A stretch of 32,337 nt of DNA from Flavobacteriales bacterium (GTDB taxonomy: Bacteria > Bacteroidota > Bacteroidia > Flavobacteriales > UBA7312): contig JAQWJZ010000043.1 of NCBI GenBank assembly GCA_029248105.1, forward strand, positions 1 to 32,337, read 5' to 3'. Positions within the stretch are counted from its first letter, which is position 1; each line of letters begins with the position of its first letter. Position numbers and translations under genes: made by a program. Below the pieces are notes generated by a model. The model made no database searches and had not been told where the DNA came from. It saw only the letters and a list, made by a program, of their open reading frames with translations. This document shows positions 9,522 through 17,656 of the stretch, piece by piece.

Positions 9522-11852
9522 AAGGATAATACACACAAACCCCATTTCATTTTGAGTGAACTTTTAAACGGATTAAATCCATCACAAAAACAAGCTGTCG
9601 AACACATAGAGGGGCCGCTAATGGTAATTGCTGGTGCAGGCTCTGGAAAAACTAGAGTATTAACATACAGAATAGCCAACCTTATAAATAGAGGTGTTGA
9701 CCCTTTTAACATATTAGCACTTACTTTCACCAATAAAGCGGCTAAAGAAATGAGGGAAAGAATTAATCAACTCATTGGAAATGAATCGCAAAATTTATGG
9801 ATGGGAACATTCCACTCTGTCTTTTCAAAAATTTTAAGATTTGAGTCTGACAAGCTAAACTACCCACAGAATTTCACTATTTACGATTCGGCAGATTCAA
9901 AAAATCTTCTAAAAAGCATAGTAAAAGAACTCAACTTAGACAAAGACATTTACAAACCTAATGTACTATTAGGAAGAATAAGCTCTCTCAAGAACAATCT
10001 TATCTCATACAAAGCATACCTTACCAATGCTTCTTTACAAGCAGAAGATGCTAGTAGAAAGTTAAACGAAATGGCAATGGTTTACAGAACCTATCAGAAT
10101 AGACTATTCACATCTGGATCTATGGACTTTGACGACCTATTGTTTAATACACATATTTTACTGCGCGATTTTCCCGAAACATTAAACAAGTACCAAAACA
10201 AATTTAAATACATCCTCGTTGATGAGTATCAAGATACCAACCAAGTCCAATACATGATTGTGAAACGTCTTGCTGCAATGAACGAAAACATTTGCGTAGT
10301 AGGCGATGATGCCCAAAGTATTTATGCTTTTAGAGGGGCAAATATTAAAAACATCCTAAATTTCAGAAATGATTACCCTGACTTTTCTTCAGTTAAACTC
10401 GAACAAAACTACAGATCGACACAAACCATAGTTAATGCAGCTAATAGCTTAATAAAACACAACAAAAACCAAATTGAAAAAACTGTTTTCAGTAAAAATG
10501 GAGTTGGTGAAATAATAAAGGTTTGCAAAACCATGAGTGATAATGAAGAAGGGCAAATAGTTGGACAGTCCATTTTTGAAACACAAATGAACAATCAATG
10601 TTTTTTCAATGAATTTGCCATACTTTACAGAACTAACGCTCAATCAAGGTCGTTAGAAGAGTCGTTAAGAAGAAGAAATATTCCCTATAAAATATATGGC
10701 GGATTATCGTTTTACCAACGCAAAGAAGTGAAAGACCTTTTGGCATACTTTAGAGTACTTATAAACCCAAGCGATGAAGAATCCTTAAAAAGGATTATAA
10801 ACTTCCCCGCAAGAGGAATTGGTAATACCACCATTCAAAAACTAATCGTTTGTTCTAGAACTAACAAAGTAAGCATTTGGGAATGTATAGAAAATCCTTT
10901 TTATCATTCAAGAATTGGAGTGAATAAAGGTACTCTTCAAAAACTAAATGCCTTTGCTCTTATGATGAACAGCTTCAAAGTACAACTTAAAGAAGACGCC
11001 TTTACATTAGCTGAATCAATTGCCAAATCAAGCACATTACTAAAAGAATTAGATAAAGACAAGACTCCTGAAGGGGTTAGCAGATACGAGAACGTACAAG
11101 AATTACTAAATGCCATTAAAGAGTTTGTTGAAAAAAACAAAAAAAGAGGCGAATCCATCTCTCTTGATTACTTCATGCAAGATGTAGCACTTATCACGGA
11201 TCAAGATAATGATGATAAGGACAATTTAAACAAAGTGACAATGATGACCATTCATGCTGCAAAAGGATTAGAATTTCCATATGTATATATTGTCGGACTT
11301 GAAGAAAACCTTTTCCCGTCACAATTAGCGGTACATTCAAGGGAAGAACTGGAGGAAGAAAGAAGATTATTTTATGTTGCCCTAACAAGAGCTGAGAAAA
11401 AAGTTCAACTTTCTTATGCAACAAGCAGATGGAGATGGGGGCAATTAATAGATTGTGAGCCTAGTCGATTTTTACAAGACATCAATGAAGATTATCTAGA
11501 TTGGCAATTCCAAACTAAAAAACAATTCCAATCACAAACAAAACCGAAACAATTTAAAGATAATACTAGAAATAACTATAATAAACCAAGCCGAACAAAA
11601 ACGAAACCTATACCAAAATTTAACCCTACGAATTTAACAAAGGCTAATTCAGCAATGAGTAAATTAGGCAGCCAAAACTCAAGGAACAATCATCTACAAG
11701 CTGGAATGCGAGTGAATCATGACCGTTTTGGACAAGGCAAAATTTTACAAATAGAAGGACAATCTGACAACAAAAAAGCCATAATTTTCTTTGATGGGAT
11801 AGGTCAAAAAACACTACTTCTAAAATTTGCCAAATTAGACATCATACCTTAA
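9519..11852 (+). CDS. UvrD/PcrA-type superfamily 1 DNA helicase
   Basis: ATP-dependent 3'-5' DNA helicase of the UvrD/PcrA/Rep family, acting in nucleotide excision repair, mismatch repair and clearing of stalled forks. All helicase motifs are visible: Walker A GAGSGKT (about 39-45), GTFHSVFSKILR, Walker B ILVDEYQDTN, GDDAQSIYAFRGA, EQNYRST, TIHAAKGLEFPYVY and RRLFYVALTRAEKK. The last 50 residues form the small PcrA-type tail domain (AGMRVNHDRFGQGKI). The length of 777 residues is normal. There is no early ATG in frame: the frame opens with TTG at 9519, and a second TTG at 9552 begins LSELLNGLNPSQ, closer to typical family N-termini. A promoter -7 element overlaps the first TTG, so 9552 may be the true start. 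I kept 9519 as the outer limit. Confidence 0.95.
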   Translation: MKDNTHKPHFILSELLNGLNPSQKQAVEHIEGPLMVIAGAGSGKTRVLTYRIANLINRGVDPFNILALTFTNKAAKEMRERINQLIGNESQNLWMGTFHSVFSKILRFESDKLNYPQNFTIYDSADSKNLLKSIVKELNLDKDIYKPNVLLGRISSLKNNLISYKAYLTNASLQAEDASRKLNEMAMVYRTYQNRLFTSGSMDFDDLLFNTHILLRDFPETLNKYQNKFKYILVDEYQDTNQVQYMIVKRLAAMNENICVVGDDAQSIYAFRGANIKNILNFRNDYPDFSSVKLEQNYRSTQTIVNAANSLIKHNKNQIEKTVFSKNGVGEIIKVCKTMSDNEEGQIVGQSIFETQMNNQCFFNEFAILYRTNAQSRSLEESLRRRNIPYKIYGGLSFYQRKEVKDLLAYFRVLINPSDEESLKRIINFPARGIGNTTIQKLIVCSRTNKVSIWECIENPFYHSRIGVNKGTLQKLNAFALMMNSFKVQLKEDAFTLAESIAKSSTLLKELDKDKTPEGVSRYENVQELLNAIKEFVEKNKKRGESISLDYFMQDVALITDQDNDDKDNLNKVTMMTIHAAKGLEFPYVYIVGLEENLFPSQLAVHSREELEEERRLFYVALTRAEKKVQLSYATSRWRWGQLIDCEPSRFLQDINEDYLDWQFQTKKQFQSQTKPKQFKDNTRNNYNKPSRTKTKPIPKFNPTNLTKANSAMSKLGSQNSRNNHLQAGMRVNHDRFGQGKILQIEGQSDNKKAIIFFDGIGQKTLLLKFAKLDIIP

Positions 11853-11905: not shown

Positions 11906-12532
11906 ATGGATTTAGAATACAACTCATCTAGAAACAAATTAGTCATTTCAGAATACGGAAGACACATTCAAAAATTAGTTGAACATGCAATGACAATAAC
12001 CGACAAAGCTGAAAGACAAAAGATGGCAAATGGCATTATCGAAATAATGGGGGAATTAAACCCACACTTGAGAGATGTTGTAGACTTCAAACACAAACTT
12101 TGGGATCACTTATTTGTCATTTCTAATTTCGACTTAGATGTAGAGTCTCCTTACGAAAAACCTGTTATCGAGAAACTTTTTGAAAAGCCCGAACCACTAA
12201 ACTACCCTAACAGCAAAATAAAATACAATCACTACGGAAAAGTAATCGAACTAATGATTTCTGAGGCCATCAAAATGGAAGACGATGACCTAAAGAAAAA
12301 GCTTGTCGTTGCTATTGCTAACCAAATGAAAAAATCCTACGTGAATTGGAATTTGGACACCGTTGAAGATGAAATCATTTTCAATCAATTATTAAAACTG
12401 TCCAATAATAAACTTTCTATTCCTGAGGGAACTGAGCTTTCTAAGTTTACACCAAACCCAAAGCAACAAAACCCTCACGCTAGAAAGAAGAAGAAAAATA
12501 ATAGAAATAATAGAAACCAACACAGAAACTAA
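11906..12532 (+). CDS. DUF4290 domain-containing protein
   Basis: I recognise this as the DUF4290 family, a Bacteroidota-conserved cytoplasmic protein usually found just upstream of murA, as here. Its 208 residues start MDLEYNSSRNKLVISEYGRH, are mostly helical and charged, and have no signal peptide or membrane segment. The last 20 residues are very basic (ARKKKKNNRNNRNQHRN), which suggests nucleic acid or ribosome contact, but this is only inference. The stop codon directly abuts the murA ATG (TAAATG), so the two are surely translated from one message. Function is unknown; conserved linkage to murA hints at a link with cell-wall synthesis or growth. Confidence 0.88.
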   Translation: MDLEYNSSRNKLVISEYGRHIQKLVEHAMTITDKAERQKMANGIIEIMGELNPHLRDVVDFKHKLWDHLFVISNFDLDVESPYEKPVIEKLFEKPEPLNYPNSKIKYNHYGKVIELMISEAIKMEDDDLKKKLVVAIANQMKKSYVNWNLDTVEDEIIFNQLLKLSNNKLSIPEGTELSKFTPNPKQQNPHARKKKKNNRNNRNQHRN

Positions 12533-13844: not shown

Positions 13845-14357
13845 ATGAGAACAATCAAAATTTTCTTAGCCTTAGCCTTTTTCATCTCAAACATTGACCT
13901 TAATGCTCAATCATTGAAAATAGGCGACAAAGCACCTGAATTGGCATACAACAGTCCAAAAGAAGAAGTATTAAAGTTATCCTCCTTAAAGGGGAAATAC
14001 GTTATTATTGACTTTTGGGCTTCTTGGTGTGGCCCTTGTAGAAGAGAAAATCTAAATTTAGTAAAGACCTATAACAAATTCAAAAAACAAAAATTTGAAA
14101 ACGGAAGTGGGCTTGAAGTATATAGTGTTTCTTTAGACAGAAAATTTAGTAGCTGGTTAAAAGCTATGACTGATGATAAATTATTTTGGGAATATCATGT
14201 CAGCGACCTTAAAGGGTGGCAATCTGATGGTGCTTCTATTTATGGTGTGCGCTCTATACCTCAAACCTTTGTCATTGACGGTGAAGGCATTATAGTCGCT
14301 AAGAACTTAAAAGGTGAAGAGTTAAACGCATTCTTAAAATCTAAAATAGCTAAATAA
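13845..14357 (+). CDS. TlpA/ResA-like periplasmic thioredoxin
   Basis: Small exported thiol-disulfide oxidoreductase of 170 residues. The signal peptide (MRTIKIFLALAFFISNIDLNAQ) is followed by an AhpC/TSA-Redoxin type thioredoxin fold. The active site is WCGPC with Cys62 and Cys65, after the strand IIDFWAS, and the cis-proline loop SIPQTFVID follows near residue 140. Family members keep periplasmic thiols reduced, for instance in cytochrome c maturation, or act as peroxidases; the substrate cannot be told here. It begins 4 bases after murA, so it is probably the last gene of that operon. The next 110 bases hold the grpE promoter. Confidence 0.9.
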   Translation: MRTIKIFLALAFFISNIDLNAQSLKIGDKAPELAYNSPKEEVLKLSSLKGKYVIIDFWASWCGPCRRENLNLVKTYNKFKKQKFENGSGLEVYSVSLDRKFSSWLKAMTDDKLFWEYHVSDLKGWQSDGASIYGVRSIPQTFVIDGEGIIVAKNLKGEELNAFLKSKIAK

Positions 14358-14391
14358 ATTGTCTTATCGCTTGAAGTAAAGTGTATTTGCT

Positions 14392-14402
14392 GACAAATTG
14401 TC
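14392..14402. promoter_or_regulatory. Palindrome upstream of the grpE promoter, possible activator site
   Basis: GACAA-A-TTGTC is a perfect 5-bp inverted repeat centred 30 bases upstream of the conserved GG of the sigma-54-like element. It could bind a dimeric regulator. A single copy is seen and no binding protein is known from the window. Confidence 0.35.
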
Positions 14403-14416
14403 TCCAATCAATAGTT

Positions 14417-14431
14417 TGGCACTTTTTTTGT
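14417..14431 (+). promoter_or_regulatory. Sigma-54-like (-24/-12) promoter of grpE-dnaJ
   Basis: TGGCAC at 14417-14422 and TTGT at 14428-14431 have the exact spacing of the sigma-54 consensus TGGCAC-N5-TTGC, with a single mismatch at the last base (T for C). Predicted transcription start is near 14442, giving a leader of about 26 bases to the grpE ATG. No CIRCE repeat is present and no good TAnnTTTG element was seen in this gap. Confidence 0.5.
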
Positions 14432-14467: not shown

Positions 14468-14962
14468 ATGGCAAAGAAAAAGAAAGAAACTAAAAAAGAG
14501 GAAGAGGTAATTGTTGAAAAACAAGAAATTACAGTAGAAGAAAAATTTGCTGAACTCAATGATAAACACTTACGTCTTTTCGCAGAGTTTGAAAACTTCA
14601 AAAAGAGAACTGCCAAAGAACGAATGGATTTATATAAAACTGCTGGCGAAAGTGTTCTTACAGCTTTGCTACCTGTTTTAGACGATTTTGAACGCTCAAT
14701 AAAAGCCAATCAGAAACAAGAAGATGAAGGCGTCGTTTTGATTTACAATAAATTAAAAAGCACTCTTGAAACAAAAGGCCTAAAAGCAATGGACGACCCT
14801 ATAGGAACAGAATTAAACACCGACTATCACGAAGCAATAACTAATATACCTGCACCATCAGACGATATGAAAGGTAAAATTATTGATGTGGTAGAAAAAG
14901 GGTATTTTTTAAATGAAAAAGTAATTCGCTACGCTAAAGTTGTTGTAGCAAATAACGAATAA
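14468..14962 (+). CDS. grpE: Nucleotide exchange factor GrpE
   Basis: Co-chaperone that drives ADP release from DnaK. The 164 residues show the family plan: a very charged, lysine- and glutamate-rich start, a long helix (LNDKHLRLFAEFENFKKRTAKER), the LLPVLDDFERSI stretch, and the beta domain near the end (NTDYHEAITNIPA, VVEKGYFLNEKVIRYAKVVV). It precedes dnaJ by 3 bases, the usual Bacteroidota grpE-dnaJ pair; dnaK is not in the window. A sigma-54-like promoter with an upstream palindrome lies before it, which suggests stress-linked control. Confidence 0.96.
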   Translation: MAKKKKETKKEEEVIVEKQEITVEEKFAELNDKHLRLFAEFENFKKRTAKERMDLYKTAGESVLTALLPVLDDFERSIKANQKQEDEGVVLIYNKLKSTLETKGLKAMDDPIGTELNTDYHEAITNIPAPSDDMKGKIIDVVEKGYFLNEKVIRYAKVVVANNE

Positions 14963-14965
14963 TAC

Positions 14966-16093
14966 ATGAGCAAAAGAGATTATTACGAAGTACTTGGTGT
15001 AAGCAAATCAGCTAGCGAAAGTGAAATTAAAAAAGCCTATCGTAAGATGGCTATTAAATATCATCCTGATAAAAACCCTGACAATAAAGAGGCTGAAGAA
15101 AAATTTAAAGAAGCAGCAGAGGCTTATGACGTCCTAAGTAATGCCGAGAAAAAGCAACGTTACGATCAATTTGGCCATGCAGGAATGGGCAATAGAGGCG
15201 GCTTTGGTGGAGGTGGCGGAATGAATATGGACGACATATTCTCTCAATTTGGCGACATTTTCGGTGGCGGAGGCGGAAGCCCATTTGACAGTTTCTTCGG
15301 CGGTGGCAGTAGAGGTGGAACAAGAAGACACAAAGGCTCTAATCTAAGAATAAAACTTAAACTTAATTTAGAAGAGGTTGCTAACGGTGTTGATAAAAAA
15401 ATAAAAGTTAAAAAATTAGTTCAAGCTGAAGGAGTAACATACAACACATGCAGTAATTGCAACGGAACAGGACAAGTTACTCGAGTAACAAATACCATTC
15501 TAGGGCAAATGCAAACTGCTCAAGCCTGTCCTTCATGTGGTGGACTAGGAAAAACTATAGACAAAAGGCCAAGTGGCACAGATGCCAATGGCATGACACA
15601 AAAAGAAGAAGTCATAAGCATCAACATCCCTGCTGGTGTAGAAGATGGCATGCAGCTAAAAGTAAGCGGTAAAGGAAACGCAGCACCATTTGACGGATAT
15701 GCTGGAGATTTAATAGTACTCATAGAGGTAGAAGAACATAAAGACCTCAAAAGAGAAAATAACAATCTTCACTACGATTGTTATATTAGCCTTGTAGATG
15801 CCGTTCTTGGCAATGATGTTGTTATTCCTACCATTTCAGGCAAAGCAAAAATCAAAATTGAAGAAGGCACTCAAAGTGGCAAAATACTAAGGTTAAAAAA
15901 CAAGGGATTGCCATCTCTAAATGGTTATGGTAAAGGCGACCTGTTAGTCCATATAAATGTGTGGACACCACAAAAACTATCCAAAGAAGAACAAAAAATA
16001 TTTAATGGATTAAAAAAATCTGAGAATTTTATCCCTAAGCCTACAGCCTCAGACAAATCATTTTTTGAGAGGGTGAAAGATATGTTCAACTAA
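14966..16093 (+). CDS. dnaJ: Chaperone DnaJ with a reduced, one-centre zinc finger
   Basis: J-domain co-chaperone that delivers clients to DnaK and stimulates its ATPase. J domain at 1-70 with HPD at 33-35, then a Gly/Phe-rich linker (about 70-116), zinc-finger part and the two substrate-binding beta domains. Canonical DnaJ has four CxxCxGxG motifs; here only two are present, CSNCNGTG (Cys162, Cys165) and CPSCGGLG (Cys188, Cys191), so a single zinc centre can form. The outer pair is replaced by VQAEGVTYN before and [11 protein letters not shown] after. I believe related flavobacteria share this form, so it is lineage-specific rather than damage. Total length of 375 is normal. It lies 3 bases after grpE; the GH-like gene follows within 15-33 bases. 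Confidence 0.95.
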
Positions 16094-16108
16094 AACAATT
16101 TGAGTCAT

Positions 16109-17656
16109 ATGGCGTTAAAGTTAAAAATGGAAAAGATTTTAATCTTAATATGTTTTATGCTTGGCGCACAGTCTTACGCTCAAGAAGTAATATCTATGTC
16201 TATAGGACAATCAATGGCTGTACCTTTAATGGGCTACAACTCAGATATGTCAAACACCCCTAAATGGAGTGAGCCTGATTTTTCACAAGCTCTCAGAGAT
16301 TTGCATACAAAAACACTAAGATACCCAGGCGGTTCTAACAGCCTGTATTGGGATTGGAAAAAAGGCTGGACACTTTCATACAAACAATTAGTACCGAAAC
16401 TTCAAGAAAAAAAATTCACCTATTTAGGCAAACCCATTTCTGACGAGTCAGAGTTAAGAGAGCTTACAACACAAAACAGAAAATCAAATTCGTTTTGGAG
16501 ACAACTTTATCGCTACAATAAAAAAGAACATAAATACAATACCATAAATGAATTCTCTAAAGGGTTAAAAACCACACAATCTGTAGGGGTAATTACTCTT
16601 AACGTTATCACTAGTCATTTAGAAAAAGAGCTTGAGATGTTAAGAGAGGTCAAAAAAAATGGTATTGAATTAAAATATATTGAACTTGGCAATGAGGTAT
16701 ATGCTGAAAATTTACTTACTAAACACATCTATCCAACTGTTGATAATTACATTGACACATGCTTAAAATGGTCTGAAGCAATATGGCAAGAATTCCCTAA
16801 GGTACATATTGGCGTAGTTGGAGGCGACAAAAACAAAAGAACAAGGGAGTGGAACAAGAAACTATCTTTAGCACTTCAAGATAAATTCTCAGAAGAAAAA
16901 AAATCACAATTACATTTTATACTTCACTATTACAGTCATTTTAAACACCCTCAGTACAATTTAAACACATTAAATGGATACCAACAATTAGTTGCTTTTC
17001 CAAAAATGGATTTAGATTTTAAACTTAAAAATTGGAGGTGGAATACAACACAACCTTTTTCTACTTGGGTAACAGAGTTTAATATGCTAGAACAACAGCC
17101 CTACACCATCAACAACAAATGGGCACATGGTCTTTTAGTGTCTAGTCAGATTGATCAATTACTCAAAAAAACCCAAGCAGAAATGTTCCATTTTCATAGT
17201 ATAGGAGCAGACAAATATCCAGTATTTGCAGCCTTACAACTCATGAATAAAGACGACACTTACCTAAAACCAACGGCAAGTGGAATTGTAACATCGTTAT
17301 GGAATAAACTAACGCAAAATGCTGAGCATTTTTATCAAATTAAAATAATAACAAAACCTTGGATTCTTAGCTATGAGAAAAAAAATAAAGACAATCCCAA
17401 TAACTTAAGAGAAGAAAAAAGCATTACATTTACACCAATACACGCATACATTAGCTATGAAAAAGATAAAGTAAAACTTCTCATTGTCAATTTATCTGAA
17501 AAGACTTTAGTTACAGATTTAAATTCGGTTATGGCAGAGAGTAAGATGACACAATACTATGCAAAACCTAATGAAACAAAAGCGAAAGTCAAAAACCAAA
17601 CAGTAAATAATAAAGTTGAATTACTCCCCTACTCCATCAGTCTATTTGAAAAATGA
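16109..17656 (+). CDS. Secreted clan GH-A-like glycoside hydrolase family protein
   Basis: The frame opens with TTG at 16100 but the first ATG is 16109, and ATG 16127 begins a compact signal peptide (MEKILILICFMLGAQSYAQ); the start is one of the last two. The mature protein of about 490 residues looks like a TIM-barrel glycosidase. It has KTLRYPGGSNSLYWDWKKGW, typical of the barrel entry in arabinofuranosidase- or heparanase-like enzymes, then IELGNE with an Asn-Glu pair as likely acid/base, LHYYSH, and TWVTEFN with Glu as likely nucleophile, followed by a small beta domain. I cannot name the family (GH51, GH79 and GH39 are similar in plan) or the substrate. There is no T9SS sorting domain, so it is probably periplasmic. 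Its end overlaps the ABC ATPase start by 4 bases. Confidence 0.7.
   Translation: MALKLKMEKILILICFMLGAQSYAQEVISMSIGQSMAVPLMGYNSDMSNTPKWSEPDFSQALRDLHTKTLRYPGGSNSLYWDWKKGWTLSYKQLVPKLQEKKFTYLGKPISDESELRELTTQNRKSNSFWRQLYRYNKKEHKYNTINEFSKGLKTTQSVGVITLNVITSHLEKELEMLREVKKNGIELKYIELGNEVYAENLLTKHIYPTVDNYIDTCLKWSEAIWQEFPKVHIGVVGGDKNKRTREWNKKLSLALQDKFSEEKKSQLHFILHYYSHFKHPQYNLNTLNGYQQLVAFPKMDLDFKLKNWRWNTTQPFSTWVTEFNMLEQQPYTINNKWAHGLLVSSQIDQLLKKTQAEMFHFHSIGADKYPVFAALQLMNKDDTYLKPTASGIVTSLWNKLTQNAEHFYQIKIITKPWILSYEKKNKDNPNNLREEKSITFTPIHAYISYEKDKVKLLIVNLSEKTLVTDLNSVMAESKMTQYYAKPNETKAKVKNQTVNNKVELLPYSISLFEK

Follow-up and report, generated by a model that had tools for sequence, protein, structure and literature searches.

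A sigma-54 promoter and an adjoining dyad before grpE-dnaJ suggest enhancer-dependent control of chaperone genes by an orphan PspF-like activator in Bacteroidia

The psp stress regulon of E. coli is controlled by PspF, a receiver-less AAA+ activator with a C-terminal Fis-type helix-turn-helix (HTH) that also represses its own expression. Heat-shock genes can likewise be placed under sigma-54 activators, as at the sigma-54 promoters of ibpB and rpoH in E. coli and in the HsfA-lonD system of Myxococcus. These cases concern single genes or depend on a response regulator, and in none does an orphan activator govern chaperone genes throughout a class. HrcA/CIRCE and sigma-32 act on the same target genes as the system described here, in which, however, HrcA is absent and control appears to be positive, through RpoN.

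The closest described system is that of Flavobacterium psychrophilum, where start-site mapping assigned groESL, lon, dnaK, grpE-dnaJ and htpG to the sigma-54 motif SM4 and the same genes share one co-expression cluster, B254 (PMC9723704). According to the main text of that study, its conditions did not include plain heat shock, none of the three candidate activators of the species is assigned to the chaperone set, and no enhancer is described (PMC9723704). A computed survey of sigma-54 regulons across phyla, published in 2025, reported promoters enriched before DnaK/GroE chaperone genes in Bacteroidota; it is built on a promoter matrix and, in its available text, names neither an enhancer dyad nor an activator (PMC12316311). 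Sigma-54 chaperone promoters in Bacteroidota are therefore already published (PMC9723704, PMC12316311). In the open-access literature, to which our search was confined (subscription papers lay outside it), we found no report of the enhancer, its phasing or the activator assignment, and no named regulator for these promoters. The locus analysed here shares with F. psychrophilum, as far as the published main text goes, the sigma factor, the five operons and a -24/-12 element before each (PMC9723704). What is added is a genome with a single activator, a shared dyad, helical phasing of that dyad, and its occurrence on the activator operon.

We analyzed a 32,337-nucleotide stretch of DNA from a Flavobacteriales bacterium (the window), whose features are collected in Table 1. 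A preliminary description had noted a near-perfect sigma-54 element before grpE-dnaJ. In this element the conserved GG lies at 14418-14419 and the -12 TTGT at 14428-14431; the spacing is that of TGGCAC-N5-TTGC, and the sole departure is the change of C to T in the -12 box. The element ends 36 bp 5' of the grpE start codon, and the predicted start of transcription lies 25 nt 5' of the ATG. The exact sigma-54 pattern occurs once in the window. With up to 2 mismatches allowed there were 4 matches against 6.6 in shuffled sequence, and it is the exact match alone that is notable. Genome-wide (1.74 Mb in 46 contigs), TTGGCAC-N4-TTTG[CT] has two exact matches, one before grpE and one before dnaK, where 0.36 (zero-order Markov) to 0.73 (first-order) were expected. 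Note that the chance estimate is a Markov estimate, the reversed-pattern control being too lenient as it contains CpG; genome-wide statements here are based on pattern searches, family searches and sequence stretches. The sigma-54 element before grpE is genuine and goes beyond chance.

Table 1. Features of the grpE-dnaJ upstream region and operon, in window coordinates.
Feature	Position	Strand	Remark
Doubtful weak half-site AAATAAATTGTCT, 52 bp upstream of TGG	14352..14364	+	PWM p=0.0055 per position
Dyad of 13 bp, enhancer-like: TGACAAATTGTCT (consensus TGNCANNNTGNCA), centre ~-46	14391..14403	+	PWM p=3e-5 per position
Sigma-54 -24/-12 element TTGGCACTTTTTTTGT	14416..14431	+	One of two exact genome matches; conserved class-wide
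Predicted transcription start	14443	+	Inferred from -24/-12 geometry
grpE, first gene of controlled operon	14468..14962	+	PF01025 E=5.6e-37
dnaJ, second operon gene	14966..16093	+	PF01556, PF00226, PF00684

The preliminary description had also reported neither a good TAnnTTTG box nor a CIRCE element. An exact TAnnTTTG is indeed absent at the promoter, and a search of the genome for HrcA found none, on which ground control by CIRCE/HrcA was rejected. A generic sigma-70 scan yielded only near-chance sites. The view that sigma-54 control of heat-shock genes is unusual stands by comparison with E. coli and Bacillus but not within Bacteroidota, where it had already been reported (PMC9723704). Overall, the earlier interpretation is partly supported.

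The genome encodes one RpoN with all three sigma-54 domains. A profile search with PF00158 returned a single strong match, the sigma-54 activator; the other matches were weak and comprised a ClpC-like protein (matched twice) and two more. The activator has 384 residues and contains the AAA+ domain with GAFTGA, Walker A and B motifs and lid, followed by a Fis-type HTH; no receiver domain was found in it. It scored 275.5 bits against the NCBIfam model of PspF (TIGR02974), far below the cut-off of 443.55, and is thus like PspF in layout and outside the PspF family. The likeness would extend to a stress regulon and self-repression, as proposed here, whereas the targets are cytosolic chaperones and the linker between AAA+ domain and HTH is longer, with a conserved helix of its own. 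In this otherwise variable linker (L125:12038-13192), residues ~278-300 form the conserved segment E/D-[IL]LYKVLFDMKKD..DLKKLV, the helix being written E/D-ILYKVLFDMKKD; it may be where a regulator, for example a chaperone, docks. The presence of RpoN and of exactly one competent activator, together with GG...TTG spacing kept class-wide before grpE, strongly supports the sigma-54 reading that the preliminary description had put forward. Two findings which that description had named as refuting it, a genome without rpoN and a lack of conserved spacing among relatives, were thus not made.

The palindrome GACAA-A-TTGTC (14392-14402) lies within the 13-bp dyad of Table 1, which was scored with a position weight matrix (PWM) built from the grpE dyads of other genomes (two-fold symmetry r=0.90). 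As a pattern alone the dyad is at chance level in the window (4 matches, 2.6 expected), so its significance comes from position and conservation. The weak half-site further upstream was excluded from the evidence. A second dyad-like site, GGACAATCTGACA (+ strand, PWM 12.3), occurs at 11757-11769, ~137 bp before an ORF at 11906; it falls within the end of the preceding helicase-like gene, no accompanying sigma-54 element was noted, and it is probably due to chance. Directly after dnaJ, an ORF (16100-17656, 518 aa) possibly encodes a secreted glycoside-hydrolase-like protein, with no NCBIfam match.

Across Bacteroidia, the sigma-54 motif (score at least 8/9) was present in 95 of 112 grpE upstream regions (85%), compared with 6% of shuffles. 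The dyad TGNCA-N3-TGNCA (at least 7/8) stood 11-13 bp upstream in 76 of the 95 regions bearing the motif, with gaps of 11 (8 regions), 12 (48) and 13 bp (20) and at most 4 at any other gap. Both elements were found in 77 of 78 grpE loci of named Bacteroidota with enough upstream DNA, the dyad (same threshold) being 12 bp (69 loci) or 13 bp (8 loci) before TGG. When 119 whole genomes were searched for dyad plus promoter with no gene named and gaps of 8-16 bp allowed, 19 matches were obtained. Eighteen preceded grpE (8), dnaK (3), htpG (3), trxA (2), hsp20 (1) or secA (1), with gaps of 10-13 bp, and the remaining one fell inside an unrelated gene. Judged by this conservation, the palindrome before grpE belongs to the same element as the sigma-54 promoter. 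The trxA sites come from two genomes of one genus and the secA site from one genome (L106, L107, L112); the regulon may reach beyond chaperones. In some flavobacterial metagenome-assembled genomes (L029, L031, L037, L049) the grpE promoter reads TGGCAAACAATTTGC, with a spacer different from the TGGCAGTACTTTTGC of Flavobacteriaceae.

The position of the dyad was further analyzed at groES. A usable TGGCA...TG element was present in 35 of 49 groES upstream regions, and 28 of these had a dyad scoring at least 5, compared with a mean of 2.2 dyad sites in shuffled regions. The gaps were 11-13, 22-23, 32-34, 42-45 and 64 bp, with none between. Their best period was 10.45 bp (R=0.90, p<=2e-4), and counting each gap once left this result in place; the shuffles and period tests model common descent incompletely. 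Since ~10.45 bp is the pitch of B-DNA, this phasing places the dyad on one helix face relative to the promoter. Same-face placement at several distances, phased at 10.45 bp, is the positional behavior of an enhancer, and enhancer function is the best explanation of these sequence patterns. By the same measure, the grpE dyad appears as the first position of the phased series, despite its closeness to the promoter. That closeness had been remarked upon in the preliminary description, which suggested another role for the palindrome. The proximity is confirmed; the other role is not, an activator site being favored because most of the class keeps the dyad at one position upstream of grpE, and because at other chaperone genes it lies whole helical turns further out.

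Within the source genome, sigma-54 elements also precede lon (TTGGCACACTTCTTGC), groES (TGGCACACTTTTTGA) and htpG (TGGCATAATTATTGC), as weaker copies than those before grpE and dnaK. Applied to these promoters, the matrix provides an independent test, being derived from other genomes. It identified strong dyads before dnaK (gap 42 bp), groES (42 bp) and htpG (54 bp), with per-position p values of 3-6e-5; the lon dyad (43 bp) was weak (p=2.6e-3). The dyad is common to the promoters of the set, as is typical of an enhancer, lon being the weak case. A search for ClpB matched a ClpC-like protein (MDSKFSPRLNEVLSFSREEALRLG), which is without a sigma-54 element. The best explanation is that dnaK, groESL, htpG and, more weakly, lon form one protein-folding stress regulon together with grpE-dnaJ.

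The strongest dyad in the stretches of the genome that were scanned, TGTCAATTTGGCA (8/8), precedes miaB, which opens the activator operon, by 47-60 bp and lies just 5' of the sigma-A -7 box TAATTTTG. The activator gene (EBP) lies in the order miaB-EBP-lptE-TPR-secG-groES-groEL, and in 33 of 57 genomes, counted by hand, groES follows it on the same strand at a distance of ~2-4 kb. Among the 31 genomes with a readable miaB start region, 20 have a perfect dyad before miaB (null 1.1%) and 25 a PWM score of at least 10 (null 2.9%). A perfect TAnnTTTG follows the dyad in 21 of these 25, mostly 15-20 bp away, placing the dyad on the -33 box. A dyad that covers the miaB-EBP -33 box implies PspF-like self-repression; by this analysis the activator probably represses its own operon.

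These data allow the grpE dyad to be read in more than one way. It could be the operator of an HrcA-like, chaperone-titrated repressor that blocks the sigma-54 promoter, with the activator acting elsewhere or without binding DNA. The site before grpE is indeed very close to the promoter (centre ~-46) and at a nearly fixed distance, as for a repressor, and the dyad over the miaB-EBP -33 box also resembles an operator. However, before groES, and before dnaK, lon and htpG of the source genome, the distance from dyad to promoter is 22-64 bp and follows whole helical turns, as for an activator, and a repressor so far upstream would need another mechanism. HrcA is absent, and the activator carries a Fis-type HTH whose recognition helix is nearly invariant. 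We consider repression through the dyad unlikely.

The activator reading, in which the dyad serves as enhancer, raises the issue of which protein binds. An orthologue of the miaB-linked activator is present in about 114 of 119 genomes (E <1e-95, versus 1e-74 and weaker for paralogues), and its recognition helix LGISERTLYRKI hardly varies among 20 orthologues. Most relatives carry several sigma-54 activators, and five genomes (G036, G050, G052, G059 and G100) are without a clear orthologue. Before grpE, several of these five retain the sigma-54 element; in G050 and G100 the dyad is kept as well. Binding by a transcription factor other than the miaB-linked activator is nevertheless improbable, as the source genome has this activator alone and yet keeps the dyads, the strongest of those scanned preceding the activator's own operon. 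These sequence relationships point to the miaB-linked orphan activator as the protein that probably binds the dyad. Of five genomes without RpoN, two (G031 and G106, both fragmented assemblies) keep both elements; only some of the other three had usable grpE upstream DNA. Where a clear activator or RpoN is missing, the assembly is in most cases fragmented or incomplete, which may account for the absences. A reduced genome of 0.49 Mb (G025; C1, L384, L390, L237) has kept rpoN and exactly one activator, the orthologue. It has a perfect dyad before grpE, where the -24 element is not recognizable, and a sigma-54 scan in which 30 loci were read gave no site between genes, its reversed-pattern control being CpG-biased.

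Finally, it is highly improbable that the conserved TGGCAGTACTTTTGC represents a sigma-A promoter, with TACTTTTG as the -7 box TAnnTTTG and the TTTG of the dyad as the -33 box: many Flavobacteriaceae elements do hold an exact TAnnTTTG with TTTG ~21 bp upstream, but all six TAnnTTTG positions are in register in only 10 of the 95 class-wide promoters, in which the sigma-54 GG, CA and TTG are nearly invariant, the window copy is without TA, and start mapping in F. psychrophilum, as given in its main text, puts grpE, dnaK, groESL, lon and htpG in the sigma-54 motif class (PMC9723704). Outside Flavobacteriaceae the match that underlies the sigma-A reading of TACTTTTG is minor, and the reading was discarded for that reason. 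The Flavobacteriaceae sequence, containing TAnnTTTG as well, might be a dual sigma-54/sigma-A promoter.

We conclude, with a probability of roughly 0.8, that grpE is preceded by a sigma-54 promoter and a dedicated enhancer for the orphan AAA+ activator of this genome. In the mechanism we propose, RpoN-containing RNA polymerase would form a closed complex on the -24/-12 element of the grpE-dnaJ promoter. The activator, as a dimer or oligomer, would bind the dyad on the same helix face as the promoter, and its ATP hydrolysis would drive open-complex formation. The same pair of promoter and dyad would control dnaK, groESL, htpG and, more weakly, lon. By binding the perfect dyad over the -33 box of its own miaB-EBP sigma-A promoter, the activator would limit its own synthesis, as PspF does. 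We infer that heat or unfolded protein is the inducing signal, perhaps sensed through chaperone feedback on the activator.

Taken more broadly, it is reasonably likely that a single orphan PspF-like activator serves as master regulator of DnaK and GroE throughout the class Bacteroidia, and perhaps throughout the phylum. It would replace HrcA and sigma-32, read the helically phased TGNCA-N3-TGNCA before sigma-54 promoters and repress its own operon, and would probably be held in check by the induced chaperones. The whole-turn placements from about -45 outward offer a natural series on how near to the promoter an activator may sit. If the proposal is true, it comes down to one conserved protein and one 13-bp site, testable in any tractable species. 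Members of Bacteroidota, a major phylum represented in gut, marine and soil habitats, would then run a general cytosolic stress response by an enhancer-dependent sigma factor, rather than by a repressor or a heat-shock sigma factor.
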